Shown here in pieces: positions 372-30,394 of a stretch of 38,535 nucleotides of DNA. Under the pieces are notes generated by a model. That model was not told where the DNA came from. It searched no databases and saw nothing but the letters and a program-made list of their open reading frames with translations. Position 1 is the stretch's first letter, and the number at the start of each line of letters is the position of its first letter. Source of the stretch: Prochlorococcus sp. AG-402-B05 (GTDB lineage Bacteria > Cyanobacteriota > Cyanobacteriia > PCC-6307 > Cyanobiaceae); the NCBI GenBank assembly GCA_003279635.1, contig QCHK01000013.1, forward strand, positions 1 to 38,535. The letters run 5' to 3'. The position numbers and the translations under genes are program-made.

Positions 372-693
372 TTAAAATTCTAAAATTTTCACTTAATCAG
401 GAAGGGTTCATCAGCTTCAAAGCCGAAGGAATCAGTCTCGATTATCTCAAAACCCAGCTATTTAGTCTTAAAAAGTTAAACTAATGATTAGCCTAACTAA
501 TTAAGATTATTGACATAATTGAACTGCTATACGTTGAATAAAGACTCCATCACGTCCAGTCACACCAGTTGATTAAAGCCAAAAAATAGGGTTAGACATA
601 AACGCTAAAAAATTAGACAACCAGACGAGCCATCTTGAGATTCCAATAAGTCTTTGAACTGAACTATCATTAAAATTCTTTCGGAAAGAATGG
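372..693. other. Intergenic stretch holding the left island boundary
   Basis: No gene is supported here. It contains the second copy of the ychF 3' end (523-556) and, just inside it, two copies of TTAGACA (592-598 and 613-619) spaced 21 bp apart. The same heptamer recurs near the other boundary at 3143-3175. Confidence 0.6.
523..556 (-). repeat. attL-like second copy of the ychF 3' end
   Basis: This segment matches 3202-3235, the last codons of ychF, at 31 of 34 positions in the same orientation. Mismatches are at 536, 543 and 551. On the minus strand it would encode DVMESLFNV followed by a stop, against DVMEFLFNV in the intact gene. A displaced gene 3' end bounding inserted DNA is the usual footprint of site-specific integration into a gene end. 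No integrase gene is visible between the two copies. Confidence 0.7.
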
Positions 694-1407
694 TTACGCG
701 AACCCTCGCCCTCTGGATTTAGTGACATCACCCACCGTTAAGAAGTGAGTCTGATCACTGCCAACGTCATAAAGAGTGTAATTAGCCCCTGCTCCAATTC
801 CTATCACTGCACGTTTAGGAAGAGTATGTTCCTGGTTTCGTTTTCCATTTAAATCTTTTACTTTTGAGTCAACTACAGCATCAGTTAACTCAAGATGAAA
901 TTGCTGTTTACTTCTAGCTGTGAATAATCTATTCACATTAAGGCGGGTAATTCGATCAAGAAGAGTAAGTGGAGGTGTTTGCATTGTCAGAATGTCTCCT
1001 ACATCTTTTGAGCTTCCATGAATCAAACCACAATCAAGTTCTACAAATCCAAATTGTAGTGATGATATCCATCCCAAATAATATGGATCTACAGCATTCA
1101 TAAGAGCATTGACAGCATCGTCTCCTTTATTGAGTCGTAAAGCATCTGCCTTTCTCTCTCCACGGTAACCTGATTCTGCCAATAATTGTTCCTCCCACCA
1201 GCCATAGATACAGTTAGGTTTCAAATCACCACGATGAGGATTTACTAATCTATTTAAAAGTGCATCACAATTCTTATCTGGTCCTACAACGTCTCCTAAA
1301 ACAAAAAGAGTTATATCTCCGCGAGTATTTTTTAAATCTTTTTGAATCAATTCATAGGTCTCAAGATCACCCATAAGACCACTTAAAAGTGCCCAACGTT
1401 CAATCAT
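694..1407 (-). CDS. Metallophosphoesterase-fold protein that has lost the catalytic motifs
   Basis: A 237-residue protein, third gene of the island operon. It follows the motif order of YfcE/Prp-type calcineurin-like phosphoesterases, but most metal ligands are changed. The first motif, normally D-x-H, reads GLMGD (residues 10-14). GDVVG (38-42) is kept. The G-N-H/C-D block is GWWEE (69-73). HGSS (130-133) is kept. The GHTH block is replaced by ARSK (164-167), and the NxGSVG block by GIGAGAN (203-209). It is therefore probably not a classical phosphoesterase and may be a regulatory or partner subunit of its upstream paralogue. I chose the ATG at 1407 because it overlaps the upstream stop as ATGA, which suggests translational coupling; an ATG at 1416 is the alternative. 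The fold assignment is inferred from motif spacing. Confidence 0.62.
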   Translation of the reverse strand: MIERWALLSGLMGDLETYELIQKDLKNTRGDITLFVLGDVVGPDKNCDALLNRLVNPHRGDLKPNCIYGWWEEQLLAESGYRGERKADALRLNKGDDAVNALMNAVDPYYLGWISSLQFGFVELDCGLIHGSSKDVGDILTMQTPPLTLLDRITRLNVNRLFTARSKQQFHLELTDAVVDSKVKDLNGKRNQEHTLPKRAVIGIGAGANYTLYDVGSDQTHFLTVGDVTKSRGRGFA

Positions 1408-2219
1408 CGTTCGCACACGTGACTAGCATCTTCAGCCAGTTCAGCAAATTCAAAACCGTTGCTCAAGCGCCATGCAAACACATGGGGTAGACCAGCCTCA
1501 ATAATTGCCTCACATGTTCGATCAATGTCGTAAGCAACTTCTCTAATCTCAACATCATTCTTTATATCGTCATGAATAACATAGGTAGCATTTACTCCTC
1601 CATGACGAGGTTCTCCGACAGATCCAGCATTTACAATTCTTCTAATAGGTAAAGTCATTTTTATATCTTCTCTTTCACGATCGGAAGCATTTTTAATATT
1701 TACGCGAATTGATCCATTCCCTAATTCACGTACATATGGAAGATGAGTATGACCGCAAAACAAAGTATCGGCTCCACTCATTTCAACTCTTTCTAATGCT
1801 GCGAATGCATCCATATCTGGAAGCAGATACTCATGCTGACTGTTGGGACTTCCATGTACGAATAACGATCTACCTCTTCTAATCGAGGTTGGGAGACTAG
1901 CTAGAAATTCTTTGTTTTCATAAGTCAACTTCTCCGTTGTCCATTGATGAGCCATATGTCCTCGCCTTTCTGCAAGCTGAGATGGATAGCTGCAATAACA
2001 AGCATCAAGACCATCAATTATGTCTTCATCCCAGCAACCCTGACAGGTTTCTATCTTCCTATCTCTAATAAGCTCAACAACTTCATTTGGCTGAGGACCA
2101 TAACCAACAAGATCGCCAAGACATGTAATGGTCTCAATTCCTTGCCGATCAATATCACTTAGCACAGCTTCAACTGCTGAGAGATTAGCATGTAAACAAG
2201 AAATTACTGCGTGTTTCAT
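1404..2219 (-). CDS. Divergent YfcE/Prp-like metallophosphoesterase
   Basis: A 271-residue calcineurin-like phosphoesterase, second gene of the island operon. Family motifs in order: SCLHAN (7-12) where DIHGN is usual, GDLVGYGP (35-42), GCWDED (61-66) where GNHD or GNCD is usual, HGSP (122-125), CGHTH (155-159) and NAGSVGEPR (197-205). The second-half metal ligands are intact, but the first Asp is Cys and the bridging Asn is Cys. That could change metal preference or activity. Relatives cleave phosphodiesters, phosphoproteins or dinucleotides; the substrate cannot be read from sequence. The start is the ATG at 2219, only 4 bases after the CobW-like gene. An upstream extension to 2294 would run deep into that gene and looks non-coding. 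It ends in an ATGA overlap with the next gene. Confidence 0.78.
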   Translation of the reverse strand: MKHAVISCLHANLSAVEAVLSDIDRQGIETITCLGDLVGYGPQPNEVVELIRDRKIETCQGCWDEDIIDGLDACYCSYPSQLAERRGHMAHQWTTEKLTYENKEFLASLPTSIRRGRSLFVHGSPNSQHEYLLPDMDAFAALERVEMSGADTLFCGHTHLPYVRELGNGSIRVNIKNASDREREDIKMTLPIRRIVNAGSVGEPRHGGVNATYVIHDDIKNDVEIREVAYDIDRTCEAIIEAGLPHVFAWRLSNGFEFAELAEDASHVCER

Positions 2220-2223
2220 ATCG

Positions 2224-3021
2224 TCAAGTTGAATAACTAGGCTGCATTTGTGTATCTCTAAGAGGGGCTTGATGAAGCTCCAAAACTGAATCATTCAAGA
2301 GACAAAGCTGAATAGTTGATTCAATTCGTACGGGGTCAAGATTTTTCCCTTGAACAACAAGTTCAGATATTCTTGTAGGTCTACCACTAGGAGGTGAGAC
2401 AGTATTAAGAGGTAAAAATCGAGAACCTTTTTGGCTAACAATCCAGTTAAAGAACATAGATCTACCATCGGGGATATTCATCAAGGCTTTAGCTCTATAA
2501 ACATCTCCATAAGCACCATTTACCAGCTCGAACCAAAAGGTATTCAGACTAGGTGGATCCCAAACATTCCGATGAAGCTTGAACCTGCATGATTCAATTT
2601 GATTGAAATTCAATGTGTCATTAATGGGTAATTCCCTATCACGTCCAAAATGAAGGTATTTATCTGGTTCAAGGTTTAAAGTTGCAAGTTGTTTGATTAC
2701 GCGCGGATCAATCCCAGCAAAACCAAGCTCTTTAGGAATTCGAAACTGAGGAAGCTCAATCAATATAAAAGAATCATCTTGATGCGAAATAGAGTCTGCA
2801 CTGGACTTTGATAAATCTATTAAATGAGGAATTTGATCTTTAAGAAAGGCATAGTCAATATCTGTAGAAGCTACTTGCTGTAGATCAATATCTCCGTAAC
2901 CAGATAGACGCAAAAAGCCACAACGGCCTTTGTGTGACTTGAGATTATTAAGAATCCAATTCGTTTTGCCACAGCCTGGCGGTCCTGAAATCAGCCACGT
3001 ATTGCTGTCCATACAGCACAT
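2224..3021 (-). CDS. Divergent COG0523 (CobW-like) P-loop protein
   Basis: A 265-residue P-loop protein and first gene of the island operon. Walker A is GPPGCGKT (13-20). A Walker-B-like strand ILIELPQ (87-92) sits where CobW-family proteins have IIETSG. The C-terminal half carries two CobW_C hallmarks, VYRAKA (174-179) and RISELVVQGKNLD (217-229). COG0523 proteins are metal-handling GTPases, often zinc-related. This one lacks the usual CxCC metal-binding motif after the P-loop and a clear NKxD guanine-specificity motif, so both nucleotide and metal specificity are open. A CC pair is present at residues 2-3. ATG codons at 3021 and 3012 are both possible starts and neither has a strong Shine-Dalgarno. 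A Fur/Zur-type palindrome lies 33 bases upstream. A role in metal supply to the downstream phosphoesterase-like proteins is inference. Confidence 0.72.
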   Translation of the reverse strand: MCCMDSNTWLISGPPGCGKTNWILNNLKSHKGRCGFLRLSGYGDIDLQQVASTDIDYAFLKDQIPHLIDLSKSSADSISHQDDSFILIELPQFRIPKELGFAGIDPRVIKQLATLNLEPDKYLHFGRDRELPINDTLNFNQIESCRFKLHRNVWDPPSLNTFWFELVNGAYGDVYRAKALMNIPDGRSMFFNWIVSQKGSRFLPLNTVSPPSGRPTRISELVVQGKNLDPVRIESTIQLCLLNDSVLELHQAPLRDTQMQPSYST

Positions 3022-3036
3022 AAATCAATGTATAGA

Positions 3037-3076
3037 AATATACACTGGAAATGAAAACGATAATCATTATTGTTTT
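3037..3076 (-). promoter_or_regulatory. Fur/Zur-type operator with overlapping promoter
   Basis: A 23-bp near-perfect palindrome is centred on C3065 (3054-3076). Its 11-base arms match at 10 of 11 positions. The core, GATAATCATTAT, matches the GATAAT-N-ATTATC pattern of Fur-superfamily sites. On the minus strand a -10-like TATATT lies at 3042-3037, so the operator would cover the -35 region of the CobW-like operon. Zur is favoured over Fur because COG0523 genes are frequent Zur targets; that choice is inference. Confidence 0.7.
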
Positions 3077-3142
3077 ACTACCTAGATATTTGATTATTTA
3101 GGCTCCCTGTCTCAAAAAAACAACCTTTCCCGTCTCAAAAAA

Positions 3143-3177
3143 TTAGACAAAAGGTTAGACATGAGTTTTGTCTAACC
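3143..3177 (-). terminator. Probable ychF terminator within a TTAGACA repeat cluster
   Basis: GGTTAGACA (3153-3161) and TGTCTAACC (3169-3177) form a perfect 9-bp stem with a 7-base loop. Read on the minus strand, downstream of ychF, the hairpin is followed by TTTTGTC and then a run of six T. The same bases include TTAGACA at 3143-3149 and 3155-3161 and its inverse at 3169-3175, matching the heptamers at 592 and 613. The site may therefore be a terminator, an integrase-arm-like repeat, or both. Confidence 0.5.
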
Positions 3178-3201
3178 CTGGAGGACCCTTGGTATAAATG
3201 C

Positions 3202-3235
3202 ACTGCTATACGTTAAATAAAAACTCCATAACGTC
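3202..3235 (-). repeat. attR-like copy: true 3' end of ychF
   Basis: These bases contain the last codons and stop of ych[10 protein letters not shown] then TAG. They match 523-556 at 31 of 34 positions in direct orientation. As the copy attached to the functional gene it is under selection, whereas the detached left copy is not. Confidence 0.7.
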
Positions 3236-4297
3236 TCCTTCATTCACTATATATTCTTTACCTTCACTTCTTAGCCAACCTTTGTTTCGAGCTTCTACTA
3301 AAGATCCAGCTTCAAGTAGTTTTTTGTATGAGATTGTTTGAGCTCGAATAAATCCCTTTTCAAAATCTGTATGTATTACCCCAGCAGCTTGAGGAGCTCT
3401 CATTCCATCAGAAATAGTCCAAGCTTTAGTTTCTTTTTCTCCAGTGGTGAAATAAGTGCTTAAGCCCAGCAATCGATATGTAGCTTTAATAAGACTAATT
3501 AAGCCTCCTTCTTCAACTCCCAAACCATTTAGATAATCATCTCTTTCCTCCTCCCCTAATTCAATTAACTCAGCCTCAACTTGCGCTGAAATCTTCACAC
3601 ATTCAGACCCTTCTTTCGTTGCCAGTGTATTTACTTCATCTGAAAAGGAATTACCCTTCGCAAGTTCATCTTCCCCAAGATTAGTTGCATAAATAATTGG
3701 TTTATCAGTTAATAATCCTAATGGTTTAATTAATTTTTTTTCTTCATCAGTTAATGAAACACTCCTAACTGCATTTTCATTTTCTAGTGCTTCACTTAAT
3801 TTTTTTAATACATCATCTTCTAACTTTGCTTCCTTACTAGTAGTTATTTGTTTTTTTAATCGAGTTCTACGTTTTTCTATTTGATTTAAATCAGACAATG
3901 CTAATTCTAAATTTATTATCTCAATATCTCTGGATGGGTCAACTGATCCAGAAACATGAATAACATCATCATCTTTAAAACACCTAATCACATGAACAAT
4001 TGCATCCACTTCTCTTATATTTGCTAAAAATTTGTTACCCAGTCCCTCCCCTTTACTTGCTCCCTTAACAAGACCAGCAATATCAACAAACTCCATTCTC
4101 GTTGGAATAATTTGCTTACTTTTACTAAGTTCACCAAGCTGATTCAAACGTTGATCAGGGACAGAAACAGAACCTACATTGGGTTCTATCGTACAAAATG
4201 GAAAGTTTGCTGCTTGAGCTTGAGCATTCGCGACAAGAGCATTAAACAAGGTGGACTTTCCAACATTAGGAAGTCCAACAATTCCGGCCTTAAGCAT
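3206..4297 (-). CDS. ychF: Redox-regulated ATPase YchF (Obg family)
   Basis: A full-length 363-residue YchF, the same length as the E. coli protein. It is a ribosome-associated P-loop ATPase of the Obg/TRAFAC class, implicated in translation and stress responses. The P-loop is GLPNVGKST (8-16). [19 protein letters not shown] is the G3 region. ATNLGED stands where GTPases have NKxD and YchF has NxxE, consistent with ATP preference. The C-terminal TGS domain ends with [17 protein letters not shown]. The start ATG at 4297 gives the canonical N-terminus [15 protein letters not shown]. The gene is divergent from the membrane-fusion protein gene and convergent on the island. Its last codons are duplicated at 523-556, as though the island used this gene end as its target. 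Confidence 0.97.
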
Positions 4298-13820: not shown

Positions 13821-15234
13821 GCTCTTTTAATTCCAACAAAAGATCTCCAAGTACTTTTTTTGCATCTCCAAAGACCATAGAAGTATTAGGCAGGTCAAAA
13901 AGATCGTTTTTTATGCCTGAATATCCAGCGCTCATTCCTCTTTTAACGACAAAAACAGTTCTAGCTTCTTGAACATCTAAAACTGGCATTCCATAAAGAG
14001 GAGAAGACTGATCAGTCTTAGCCTGTGGATTAACCACATCATTTGCTCCTAGAACCAAAACAACATCCGTAGCAGGGAATTCAGGATTAATTACATCCAT
14101 TTCTTTTAGTTGCTCATAAGGTACATCTGCTTCCGCCAAAAGAACATTCATATGACCGGGCATCCTTCCAGCGACGGGATGAATGGCATAGGTGACTTCA
14201 ATTTCGGAATTTTCTAAAACTCTGGTAACTTCCCTAAGAGTGTGCTGAGCCTGAGCCACTGCAAGGCCATAACCTGGGACAATTACAACTCTCTCTGCAG
14301 CCTCTAGAGAGAGTGCACATTCTTCTGGGCTGCAACTAGTGATATTTGTATACTCTCCACCTCCTCCTGAAGCAACTGAACTAGAACCAAGTGCGCCTCC
14401 AAACAAGACCGAAATTAAAGATCTATTCATCCCATCGCACATAACCTGTGTAAGTATTAGCCCAGCAGCTCCAACCATTGCACCAGCAACAATCAAAAGT
14501 TGACTGCCAACGACGAATCCAGCTGCTGCTGCTGCAACCCCTGAGTAGCTGTTCAGTAGAGATATGACTACTGGCATATCTGCACCACCAATGGGAAGAG
14601 TTACTCCAACACCAAGCAAAGACGAGGCAATTACAATAAGAAAAAGACCATTTTGTCCATCGATTGAAAGATAGATTCCTCCGATCAAAGCAAGAACAGC
14701 GCAAAAAATATTGAAGAAGTGCCTAGCCTTACTTTGAGTCCAAGAAGGAGTAGACAGCCAGCCCTGAAGCTTAGCCATTGCAACTATTGATCCGGAGAAT
14801 GTAATAGCTCCTACAAAAAGTGAAACGACTATTGAAAAATTCCTAATAAGTTCACCAACAACGCCATCAGAGCCGTCTGAGGATGGGAACAAAGCCACAC
14901 CAAGTGCGACCAATAACGATGACATCCCTCCACAACCGTTAAACAAAGCAACTATCTCAGGCATTGCAGTCATTGGAACCCTTTTAGCCGTTAAAGCTCC
15001 TAAAAGCCCTCCAATTAAAGTTCCACAAATTATCCAAATCCAAGAGTTAATAGAAATCCCGGTGGTGCCTTGAGAGTTAAGCAACACTCCAACAGCAGCC
15101 AACAACATAGCAATACCGGCAAGCCTATTTGCCTCTCTTGCTGATCTAACTTTTGAAAGGCCTTTAATGCCTAGAGCAAGCAATAAAACTGCCAGTAGAT
15201 CAATAGCAAACTTAATGGGAGCAATAAAAGTCAT
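13798..15234 (-). CDS. pntB: NAD(P) transhydrogenase subunit beta
   Basis: A 478-residue proton-translocating transhydrogenase beta subunit. It uses the proton gradient to drive hydride transfer from NADH to NADP+. The N-terminal half has roughly nine membrane segments, including ALFNGCGGMSSLLVALG and GGADMPVVISLLNSYSG, both conserved in the family. The C-terminal NADP(H)-binding domain shows VIVPGYGLAVAQAQH, HPVAGRMPGHMNVLLAEA, LVLGANDVVNPQA and VVKRGMSAGYSGIKN. The start is the ATG at 15234, 11 bases after pntAB. It forms a pntAA-pntAB-pntB operon, the split arrangement usual in cyanobacteria. Confidence 0.98.
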   Translation of the reverse strand: MTFIAPIKFAIDLLAVLLLALGIKGLSKVRSAREANRLAGIAMLLAAVGVLLNSQGTTGISINSWIWIICGTLIGGLLGALTAKRVPMTAMPEIVALFNGCGGMSSLLVALGVALFPSSDGSDGVVGELIRNFSIVVSLFVGAITFSGSIVAMAKLQGWLSTPSWTQSKARHFFNIFCAVLALIGGIYLSIDGQNGLFLIVIASSLLGVGVTLPIGGADMPVVISLLNSYSGVAAAAAGFVVGSQLLIVAGAMVGAAGLILTQVMCDGMNRSLISVLFGGALGSSSVASGGGGEYTNITSCSPEECALSLEAAERVVIVPGYGLAVAQAQHTLREVTRVLENSEIEVTYAIHPVAGRMPGHMNVLLAEADVPYEQLKEMDVINPEFPATDVVLVLGANDVVNPQAKTDQSSPLYGMPVLDVQEARTVFVVKRGMSAGYSGIKNDLFDLPNTSMVFGDAKKVLGDLLLELKELGVGSKG

Positions 15235-17953: not shown

Positions 17954-19330
17954 ATGCCAGCCGAGAACAAAGAATTGAAAACTGAAAATCTAGTAATTAT
18001 AGGTTCAGGACCCGCTGGATATACCGCTGCCATCTATGCGGCAAGAGCGAATCTACAACCACTTATTATTACTGGGTTTGAAAAAGGTGGAATTCCAGGT
18101 GGTCAATTAATGACAACAACATTTGTAGAAAATTTCCCAGGTTTTCCAAATGGAGTTCAAGGTCCAGAATTGATGGATTTAATAAAAGCACAAGCTGTAA
18201 GATGGGGCACAAATCTAATTGAAGAAGATGCCATATCAATTGATCTAAGCAAAAGACCCTTTTCTATTGTTACTACTACCCAAAAAATTAAAACAAACTC
18301 CTTAATTATTTCAACCGGAGCAAGTGCCAATCGTCTAGGTCTTAAAAATGAGAAATTATTCTGGAGTAAAGGTATCAGTGCCTGTGCAATTTGCGATGGA
18401 GCAACCCCTCAATTCAGAGATGAAGAACTTGCCGTAATTGGAGGAGGGGACTCGGCTTGTGAAGAAGCCGAATACCTAACTAAATACGGAAGCCATGTAC
18501 ATTTGTTAGTCAGATCAACGAAACTAAGGGCTTCAGCGGCAATGGCCGATCGAGTAGAAGCAAATCCCAACATTACTATTCATTGGGAGACAGAGCTTTT
18601 AGATGTTTTGGGTAATGATTGGCTCGAGAAATTAAAAGTTAAACGAAGAGACACTAACCAAGAAGATGAAATTTTAGCCAAGGGACTTTTTTATGCCATT
18701 GGACATACTCCCAACACGTCTTTATTTACCAATCAGTTAAGTACAGACTCAAAAGGTTACTTACTAACAAAACCTGGGAGGCCTGAAACCTCATTAGAAG
18801 GTGTTTATGCTGCTGGAGATGTTGCTGATTCGGAATGGCGTCAAGGTGTTACTGCAGCAGGCAGCGGTTGCAAAGCAGCTTTGGCTGCTGAAAGATGGCT
18901 CACAAAAAACAACCTAGCAACACTTATTAAAAGAGTTCAATTAGAGCCCTCAAAGGCTGAGACAACAAAAACTTTAGAAATTAGCAACGAGGAAAATTTC
19001 GACCCCGAAAAGACATGGCAAAAAGGAAGTTATGCACTAAGAAAGTTGTATCATGAGACAGAAAAACCTCTCTTCGTAGTTTACACATCCAGTAGCTGTG
19101 GCCCTTGTCACATTCTGAAGCCACAACTTCATAGAGTTCTTAACGAGTCAAAAGGGGAAGCTATAGGAGTTGAAATTGATATTGAAAAAAACCAAGATAT
19201 TGCAAATCAAGCTGAAGTAAGCGGGACTCCAACGGTACATCTTTTTAAAAATAAGGAATTAAAAAAACAATGGAAAGGTGTTAAAGCAAGAAGTGAATAT
19301 AAAGCCGCATTAGATGAACTAATTAATTAG
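17954..19330 (+). CDS. trxB: NADPH-thioredoxin reductase with fused thioredoxin (NTRC)
   Basis: A 458-residue fusion of a full thioredoxin reductase with a C-terminal thioredoxin domain, the NTRC type of cyanobacteria and plastids. It passes NADPH electrons to 2-Cys peroxiredoxins and other redox targets. The FAD loop [10 protein letters not shown] is at 17-26. The reductase redox centre is CAIC (144-147). The NADPH loop is [15 protein letters not shown], and the FAD-closing patch is [10 protein letters not shown]. The thioredoxin active site is CGPC (382-385) in [12 protein letters not shown], and the cis-Pro segment is [10 protein letters not shown]. The start ATG at 17954 is supported by the fold. 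It is convergent with infA, 11 bases apart. Confidence 0.97.
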
Positions 19331-30210: not shown

Positions 30211-30308
30211 TGATTTTCACCTCTTATTTATTTTAAGCACATTTAATAAAGTCAGTTTAAAAGTCTTAAAGAAAATATGTTAAAAAAAAAGTAACTTCTG
30301 TGCAATAC

Positions 30309-30394
30309 GGAGAGGGTGGGATTCGAACCCACGGATAGTTTTAGCTATCAAACGATTTCGAGTCGTTCGCTTTCGACCACTCAGCCACCTCTCC
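30309..30394 (-). tRNA. tRNA-Ser (anticodon CGA)
   Basis: The minus strand folds into an 86-base class II tRNA. The acceptor arm pairs GGAGAGG with the complementary CCCTCTCC end, the anticodon loop is CTCGAAA (CGA, reading UCG), a long variable arm of the serine type is present (GATAGCTAAAACTATC), and the T-loop is GGTTCGAATCC. No CCA is encoded. Confidence 0.97.

Follow-up and report, generated by a model that had tools for sequence, protein, structure and literature searches.

The 3' end of ychF as a probable insertion site for arrays of integrase-less cassettes in Prochlorococcus

The ychF locus and its first cassette

The window analyzed here, a 38,535-bp stretch of Prochlorococcus sp. 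AG-402-B05 (contig QCHK01000013.1), is the entire contig G000:C13 of a genome in 62 contigs and comes from a genus (g1) that we take to be the LLI low-light clade. On its minus strand lies ychF (3206 to 4297; PF06071, E = 2.8e-35), and the last codons of this gene, M-E-F-L-F-N-V, recur as an attachment core at the borders of gene cassettes arrayed behind it. Within the window, positions 523 to 556 match positions 3202 to 3235 at 31 of 34 nucleotides in direct orientation, the runner-up elsewhere in the window, on either strand, reaches 20 of 34, and the pair can be extended solely at low identity (71% over 87 nt). The direct repeat described in a first-pass annotation of this sequence, with the right copy as the end of ychF, is thus borne out, as is its translation of the left copy, DVMESLFNV-stop. 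What does not hold is its view of the left copy as a decayed twin of the gene end and of the interval as a single island: what comes before that copy, in the sense of ychF, is a cassette arm common to other junctions rather than decayed ychF, the left copy is the junction of two cassettes, and the interval is a single member of a tandem array that is open-ended. Because the window is an entire contig, this array passes the contig end, 522 bp past the left copy. The sole tRNA gene of the window is at 30308 to 30394, and there is none near the repeats.

Read in the sense of ychF, on the minus strand, the core at the 3' end of the gene (3204 to 3227) has one mismatch to the genus pattern and is followed, directly after the stop codon, by the right arm of the first cassette (3183 to 3205). 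Past the right arm is an inverted repeat, GGTTAGAC..GTCTAACC (3153 to 3177), an arm-type motif that might also end ychF transcription. The first cassette extends from core to core (547 to 3225, minus strand, with a start-to-start spacing of 2679 bp), and its interior is 97.0 to 98.2% identical to nine other copies compared. Its cargo, all on the minus strand, consists of a CobW_C-domain protein (2224 to 3021; PF07683, 21 bits against a cut-off of 22), a calcineurin-like metallophosphoesterase (1404 to 2294; PF12850), and a 240-amino-acid protein (694 to 1416) with no match in Pfam, NCBIfam, PHROGs, or PADLOC; in PHROGs, the cargo of the window gave phosphatase-type matches only. The distal end of the cassette carries, on the same strand, the arm motifs TCTAAC and TCTAAT (591 to 620) and the left arm (552 to 571), which leads into the second attachment core (525 to 548), that is, the left copy. 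The next cassette begins there and is cut by the contig end (1 to 524); it is 67 to 69% identical over 248 to 422 bp to cassettes of loci L065, L073, and L052, those of L073 and L052 directly following ychF, and it appears from its sequence to encode, on the plus strand, the end of a DUF4214-type protein. Just upstream of the CobW gene, a palindromic motif of the GATAATCATTATTGT type (3054 to 3076) resembles a Zur/Fur box, and the CobW cassette may form an operon that is regulated by metal and has a promoter of its own.

Arrays, junctions, and cassette transfer in the genus

ychF was present in 29 of the 41 genomes of the genus (E up to 1e-60), and the DNA after it was read for all 28 ychF-bearing relatives, along with two further contigs; the oriented set comprises 29 loci, including the window and excluding L076 and L077, which are without ychF. 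In these 29 loci, the last codons of ychF are repeated downstream up to six more times, with 51 cores in forward orientation and 0 in reverse at a score of at least 18 of 21. One reverse match appears at the lowest threshold only (L054 at +11740, 23 of 33, with shuffled sequences reaching up to 22). A further copy of the ychF end, accompanied by an arm motif, lies behind ychF in 23 of the 28 loci having at least 900 bp downstream, those without one being L049, L068, L069, L070, and L073. This recurrence, along with the empty site described below, supports the earlier proposal that ychF serves as an integration site, and the search that it recommended for other islands ending in ychF repeats has produced arrays, with no recombinase found inside them. 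The same annotation held that finding the left copy in strains lacking the CobW operon would speak against integration; taken literally, such strains exist, with other cassettes carrying such junctions, and this extends the idea rather than refuting it.

Core matches cluster at ychF. In six single-contig genomes (G002 to G007) used for genome-wide placement, 20 of the 21 core matches fall at the ychF locus, comprising the six ychF ends and 14 same-strand copies no more than 9 kb behind them, and the remaining match lies within a 596-amino-acid reading frame and is without arms; a dispersed repeat family is therefore not supported. All nine left-arm matches, from 6 of the 11 genomes searched, are behind ychF, and a search of genome contigs that possibly omitted the records closest to the window's genome matched the exact core pattern to 29 stretches, every one from Prochlorococcus. 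Contigs of G008, G017, G027, G033, and G036 on which no ychF was detected hold junctions as well and may be fragments of arrays.

Calling a cassette where the core scored at least 17 of 21, or 16 of 21 together with an arm motif, gave 64 cassettes between successive cores in 23 loci, ranging from 137 to 7215 bp and holding as many as three genes, on either strand; in some long units a junction was missed (in L067 at +5219 and perhaps in L061 at +7985), which makes these counts and sizes approximate. Two similarity clusters (A and B) merged unlike cassettes via their common ends and do not serve as counts. The cores that bound the cassettes agree with the earlier claim that the element supplies its own copy of the gene end.

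In the ychF sense, a junction consists of TCTAAC motifs, a spacer, the left arm (TTGGTATGACTGGACG type), the core (GGAGTTTTTATTCAACGT), and the right arm (AGTCATACCAAGGG type), the last frequently followed by GTTAGA or TCTAAC. Of 64 array cores, 59 have TCTAAC within 110 bp to their left, and 63 of 87 cores have GTTAGA or TCTAAC to their right, as against 55 of 1012 interior windows having either motif. The arms are imperfect inverted repeats, with 12.1 complementary matches between left and right arm versus 8.8 for shuffled arms, but random pairs of array arms reach 11.8, and the complementarity therefore reflects a common consensus. ychF itself has the core and the right arm, but where the left arm would be it has coding sequence (complementarity of 8.5, no excess). 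The sequence adjoining the core differs by cassette: each right arm goes with the cassette after it and each left arm with the one before it, which places the exchange within the core. Synonymous constraint at the ychF end was considered and set aside; codons 358 to 362 vary by 0.08 to 0.15 against a mean of 0.25, but six-codon windows elsewhere in ychF go down to 0.037, and the low variation is thus no evidence by itself. An Rfam scan of four loci gave no match.

Cassettes change position between strains and are more similar than the loci that hold them. A transglutaminase cassette of three genes occupies array positions 1, 2, 3, and 5 across seven genomes, with homology stopping at the core on both sides; its interior has a mean identity of 97.9%, compared with 89.1% for ychF of the same strains, and is higher than ychF in 21 of 21 pairs. 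For ten CobW cassettes, a selected set rather than all, the mean is 98.0% versus 89.2% for ychF (45 of 45 pairs), so that cassette identity exceeds ychF identity in all 66 pairs of both types. Cassette and ychF identity are uncorrelated (-0.21 for the transglutaminase cassette and 0.06 for the CobW cassette). Because cassette identity is both above and uncorrelated with that of ychF, the comparison points to lateral transfer of the cassettes, not inheritance with the locus by common descent, and the near identity of cassettes between diverged strains makes it doubtful that the element is a relic, as had been suggested.

The empty site that the first-pass annotation had named as a check is found at L068 (G009), where the chromosomal flank, a terminator-like hairpin together with a conserved stretch, begins 45 bp behind a ychF without a right arm. 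The same flank occurs in 15 other loci of the genus, at 109 bp behind ychF in L070 and at 2.6 to 16.0 kb in the other 14, and in 7 of these 14 long occupied loci it is preceded within 160 bp by a core (at least 15 of 21). It was not found in 13 genus loci, ten of which have less than 7 kb downstream, nor in any of the 31 loci read from other genera. L054 represents a single-occupant site, in which ychF is followed by the CobW cassette, a core, and the flank, with exactly one cassette detected. The ychF core of L068 is of the B type, with three synonymous differences, whereas 27 of the 28 others are of the A type (the window differing at one position), and the three synonymous changes common to array cores of the genus are missing from the ychF of the empty site. 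The L068 allele, from one genome, fits a replacement of the ychF end by incoming cassettes. The farther a core lies from ychF, the less it resembles the consensus core (rho = -0.45, P = 0.0002, n = 64, although junctions within one locus are not independent), in agreement with new cassettes entering at ychF.

The route of insertion and competing explanations

We consider it probable that cassette arrays arise by insertion at the 3' end of ychF and that the integrase-less cassettes are inserted by a recombinase acting in trans. Each cassette would pass through a circular form, and the recombinase would be site-specific and most likely of the tyrosine type; we place it in trans since no such enzyme turned up within the arrays. 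The presumed excised circle would carry left arm, core, and right arm, its core approximating the last codons of ychF, and recombination between this core and that of ychF would place the cassette directly behind the gene. ychF would keep an intact end and gain the right arm of the incoming cassette, and whatever had followed the gene, be it the original downstream DNA or an earlier cassette, would be moved outward, behind the left arm and core of the new one, so that repeated insertion would yield a polar array. An exchange in the core with the arms split between neighbors has the anatomy of an attP-attB reaction.

Consistent with the earlier observation that the element retains no integrase, no PF00589 or PF00239 match lies, by coordinates, inside any ychF array. 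The arrays hold 111 reading frames of at least 100 amino acids in 38 clusters, of which 70 were scanned individually and the other 41, making up five clusters, through one representative each; the families reported for array frames (the best 25 of 40 and the best 25 of 41) include no recombinase or transposase, and the remaining families of the first of these two lists were single matches weaker than 1.9e-6. A serine recombinase was rejected, PF00239 being present in 20 of 41 genomes and never within an array. The candidate is a conserved tyrosine recombinase of 386 to 390 amino acids, encoded away from the arrays in 20 of the 21 genomes tested; in L127 it is 386 amino acids long, with neighbors that are presumably, e.g., hemH and pyrH. 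By its length, the 386-amino-acid protein is the sole PF00589 match in several array-bearing genomes (among them G001, G002, G017 to G020, G024, G057, G246, and G256). It is a candidate only; the donor DNA could just as well bring an enzyme with it. No arm motif was present in the 6.5 kb around it.

Several results weigh against insertion by a recombinase in trans. No recombinase is linked to the array, and the candidate enzyme is present equally in genera without arrays and missing from an array-bearing draft genome (G232). Covariation between the arms at the two ends of an element is weak (P = 0.027, or 0.087 after dereplication) and similar to that between the arms at a junction (P = 0.021), which leaves the recombining unit unproven. 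The empty site comes from a single draft genome that is 54% complete, 7 of the 14 long occupied loci have no core within 160 bp of the flank, and no flank was found within about 16.9 kb in L065, L067, and L072. Left-arm quality shows no trend with distance (rho = -0.14, P = 0.27). A search of viral contigs with three DNA patterns and two proteins found nothing, and a viral or satellite carrier was rejected on this result and on nine phage records that match within ychF only. Two contigs also sit awkwardly with a single polar array at ychF. On the 3060-bp contig G008:C38 (L151), two junctions accompany a flank junction inverted relative to them, an arrangement that an inversion or an amplification chimera could explain. 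On G027:C9 (L148), an isolated junction at 14652 lies behind a TPR gene, and a PF00589 fragment that adjoins a dehydroquinase-like frame (named from its sequence) is found 3.4 kb beyond it (18047 to 18211). This junction may be another locus, perhaps a second site or a remnant of a carrier, and is a lead.

Among the alternatives, homologous recombination, in which ordinary exchange through arms, cores, and ychF, following transduction or the uptake of DNA, now swaps the cassettes of an old array between strains, would account for the presence of different arms on one cassette type in different strains and sits well with the weak covariation of the ends. Since it leaves the border cores, the single orientation, and the polarity unexplained, we judge it somewhat unlikely as the full explanation, although it may operate as well. 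From the 34 bp within the window, one might entertain a chance match or a decayed tandem copy of ychF, but the 20 of 34 runner-up, together with the recurring cores, junction arms, and empty site of related genomes, contradicts it and reduces it to a negligible prospect.

The polarity of the arrays also recalls integrons, in which case the junctions would be attC-like sites folded as single strands, ychF would correspond to attI, and an IntI-type enzyme would act in trans. The palindromic junctions do fold better than shuffled sequences (mean z of -1.18 for 64 junctions, compared with -0.05 for 47 interior segments and +0.27 for 23 ychF sites), and the outer boxes GTCTAAC/GTTAGAC fit the consensus RYYYAAC/GTTRRRY. 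Yet z falls below -1.5 in only 30% of junctions, as against 11% of interior segments, the right arm moves with the following cassette (which places the exchange in the core, not at GTTAGAC), and the resident recombinase scores 23.6 bits against the best NCBIfam model (XerA/integron integrases), whose cut-off is 220, all of which renders an integron-like system unlikely. Transposition is more doubtful still: inverted arms at the element ends and a single preferred chromosomal site would suit a Tn7-like element with the core as a long target-site duplication, but no transposase family is among those reported for the array frames scanned, the sequence adjoining the core differs by cassette, and array cores of the genus have the three synonymous changes that the ychF of the empty site lacks. 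Insertion within the core by a site-specific recombinase in trans is the reading that we retain.

Cargo, distribution, and related systems

Cargo includes the CobW_C/metallophosphoesterase operon, a CP_ATPgrasp/Alpha-E/transglutaminase operon, TPR proteins (14 of 14 members of one cluster), and DUF4214 proteins (9 of 56 frames), in addition to carbamoyltransferase, nucleoside phosphorylase-type, short-chain dehydrogenase, T2SSE, pentapeptide, glycosyltransferase, methyltransferase, 2OG oxygenase, and NucS/MrcB nuclease families. The CobW-type protein occurs in 17 of the 41 genus genomes, 14 times at 93% identity or more, twice as a diverged homologue elsewhere, and once as a 21-residue match. 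The diverged homologues (67 to 68%) lie away from ychF (G014:C5:44377-45147 and G007:C1:1601353-1602114), the one in G014 about 2.6 kb from a PF00589 match. A first-position cassette of L074 contains a NucS/MrcB-type nuclease gene (+1224 to +2139) that matches PADLOC PDC-S02 (1.7e-43) and for which a defence function is possible. In L055 and L056, a 189-amino-acid protein constitutes a solo cassette (+190 to +760); it has a weak NikA-like match (E of 0.008, below the cut-off) and could be a DNA-binding accessory factor. Just past the end of the L051 array is a Photo_RC (psbA-type) gene (+12526 to +13609), and a short frame of the same cluster is present in L070 (+528 to +1071).

Beyond the genus, we read 31 loci, some of them picked for several core matches, and arrays with similar arms are present in 7 (L115, L117, L131, L132, L133, L134, and L139). 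Array cores in the genus are of the A type in 60 of 61 cases, and those of other genera of the B type in 18 of 19 (14 of 14 without five doubtful rows, L120, L122, L136, L143, and L145). Genus g9, presumably a high-light clade, has the core pattern at most once per genome (once in 63 of 68 genomes and not at all in 5, as counted by eye with one mismatch allowed, which would miss diverged copies). In L110, from genus g7 and without repeated cores, a right-arm-like stretch with GTTAGAC after the ychF stop is perhaps a remnant.

The nearest parallel, to the extent of its available description, is the additive island fGI-2 of "Candidatus Methylopumilus," which arises by repeated insertion at one site bordered by tRNA-Lys end repeats (PMC10872708). 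Like the ychF arrays, it grows at a single site and varies in content between strains; its target is a tRNA gene, and arms, empty site, and polarity are not part of the account available to us, whereas here the target is the end of a protein gene and the arms are conserved and inverted. SGI1 also integrates at the 3' end of a protein gene, trmE, with tandem integration on record (PMC8409611 and PMC2297512), but the accessible descriptions are of large mobilizable islands, not arrays of small integrase-less cassettes. Pneumococcal prophages and satellite prophages likewise have an attachment site neighboring ychF, in the parts of the reports consulted the intergenic region upstream of the gene (PMC8637289 and PMC10383233), while the cassette arrays are at its 3' end. 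Traits of phage satellites or prophages did not come to light in the arrays, the cargo of the window having phosphatase-type PHROGs matches only and the search of viral contigs giving none.

Integrons carry tandem cassettes in one orientation, with palindromic junctions, insertion polarity, and an enzyme that acts in trans to the cassettes. The ychF arrays share the single orientation, the palindromic junctions, the polarity, and probably the action of an enzyme in trans but differ in having no adjacent integrase and no attI, an exchange in a gene-derived core, and cassettes with as many as three genes, on either strand. Tycheposons of Prochlorococcus were reportedly first described by Hackl et al. 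in 2023. In a second-hand account, they measure 4 to 200 kb, have tRNA genes at their borders, and encode a tyrosine recombinase (PMC10872708). As far as that account goes, they resemble the cassettes in occurring in the same organisms and carrying cargo at gene ends, and are distinguished from them by the size (about 0.1 to 7 kb for cassettes), the ychF target, and the missing internal recombinase, tRNA absence having been checked in the window only. In the literature on Prochlorococcus consulted, ychF appears as a marker or housekeeping gene, and the tycheposon paper and most subscription papers, which are outside that scope, may mention the insertion site.

More tentatively, the arrays could represent a stand-alone capture platform, in which the end of a conserved gene for a translation-associated GTPase is the entry point, the cassettes are enzyme-less, and the core has codiverged with the ychF allele of each clade; such a platform would be a functional parallel to integrons and a main route of small-operon exchange in low-light Prochlorococcus. 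The flexible small genes of one of the most abundant phototrophs in the ocean would have a defined entry port from which their order of arrival could be read. The movement of integrase-less cassettes would be reduced to a question about one core of 17 to 21 bp, and that core would offer a means to predict cassette borders in single-cell genomes.

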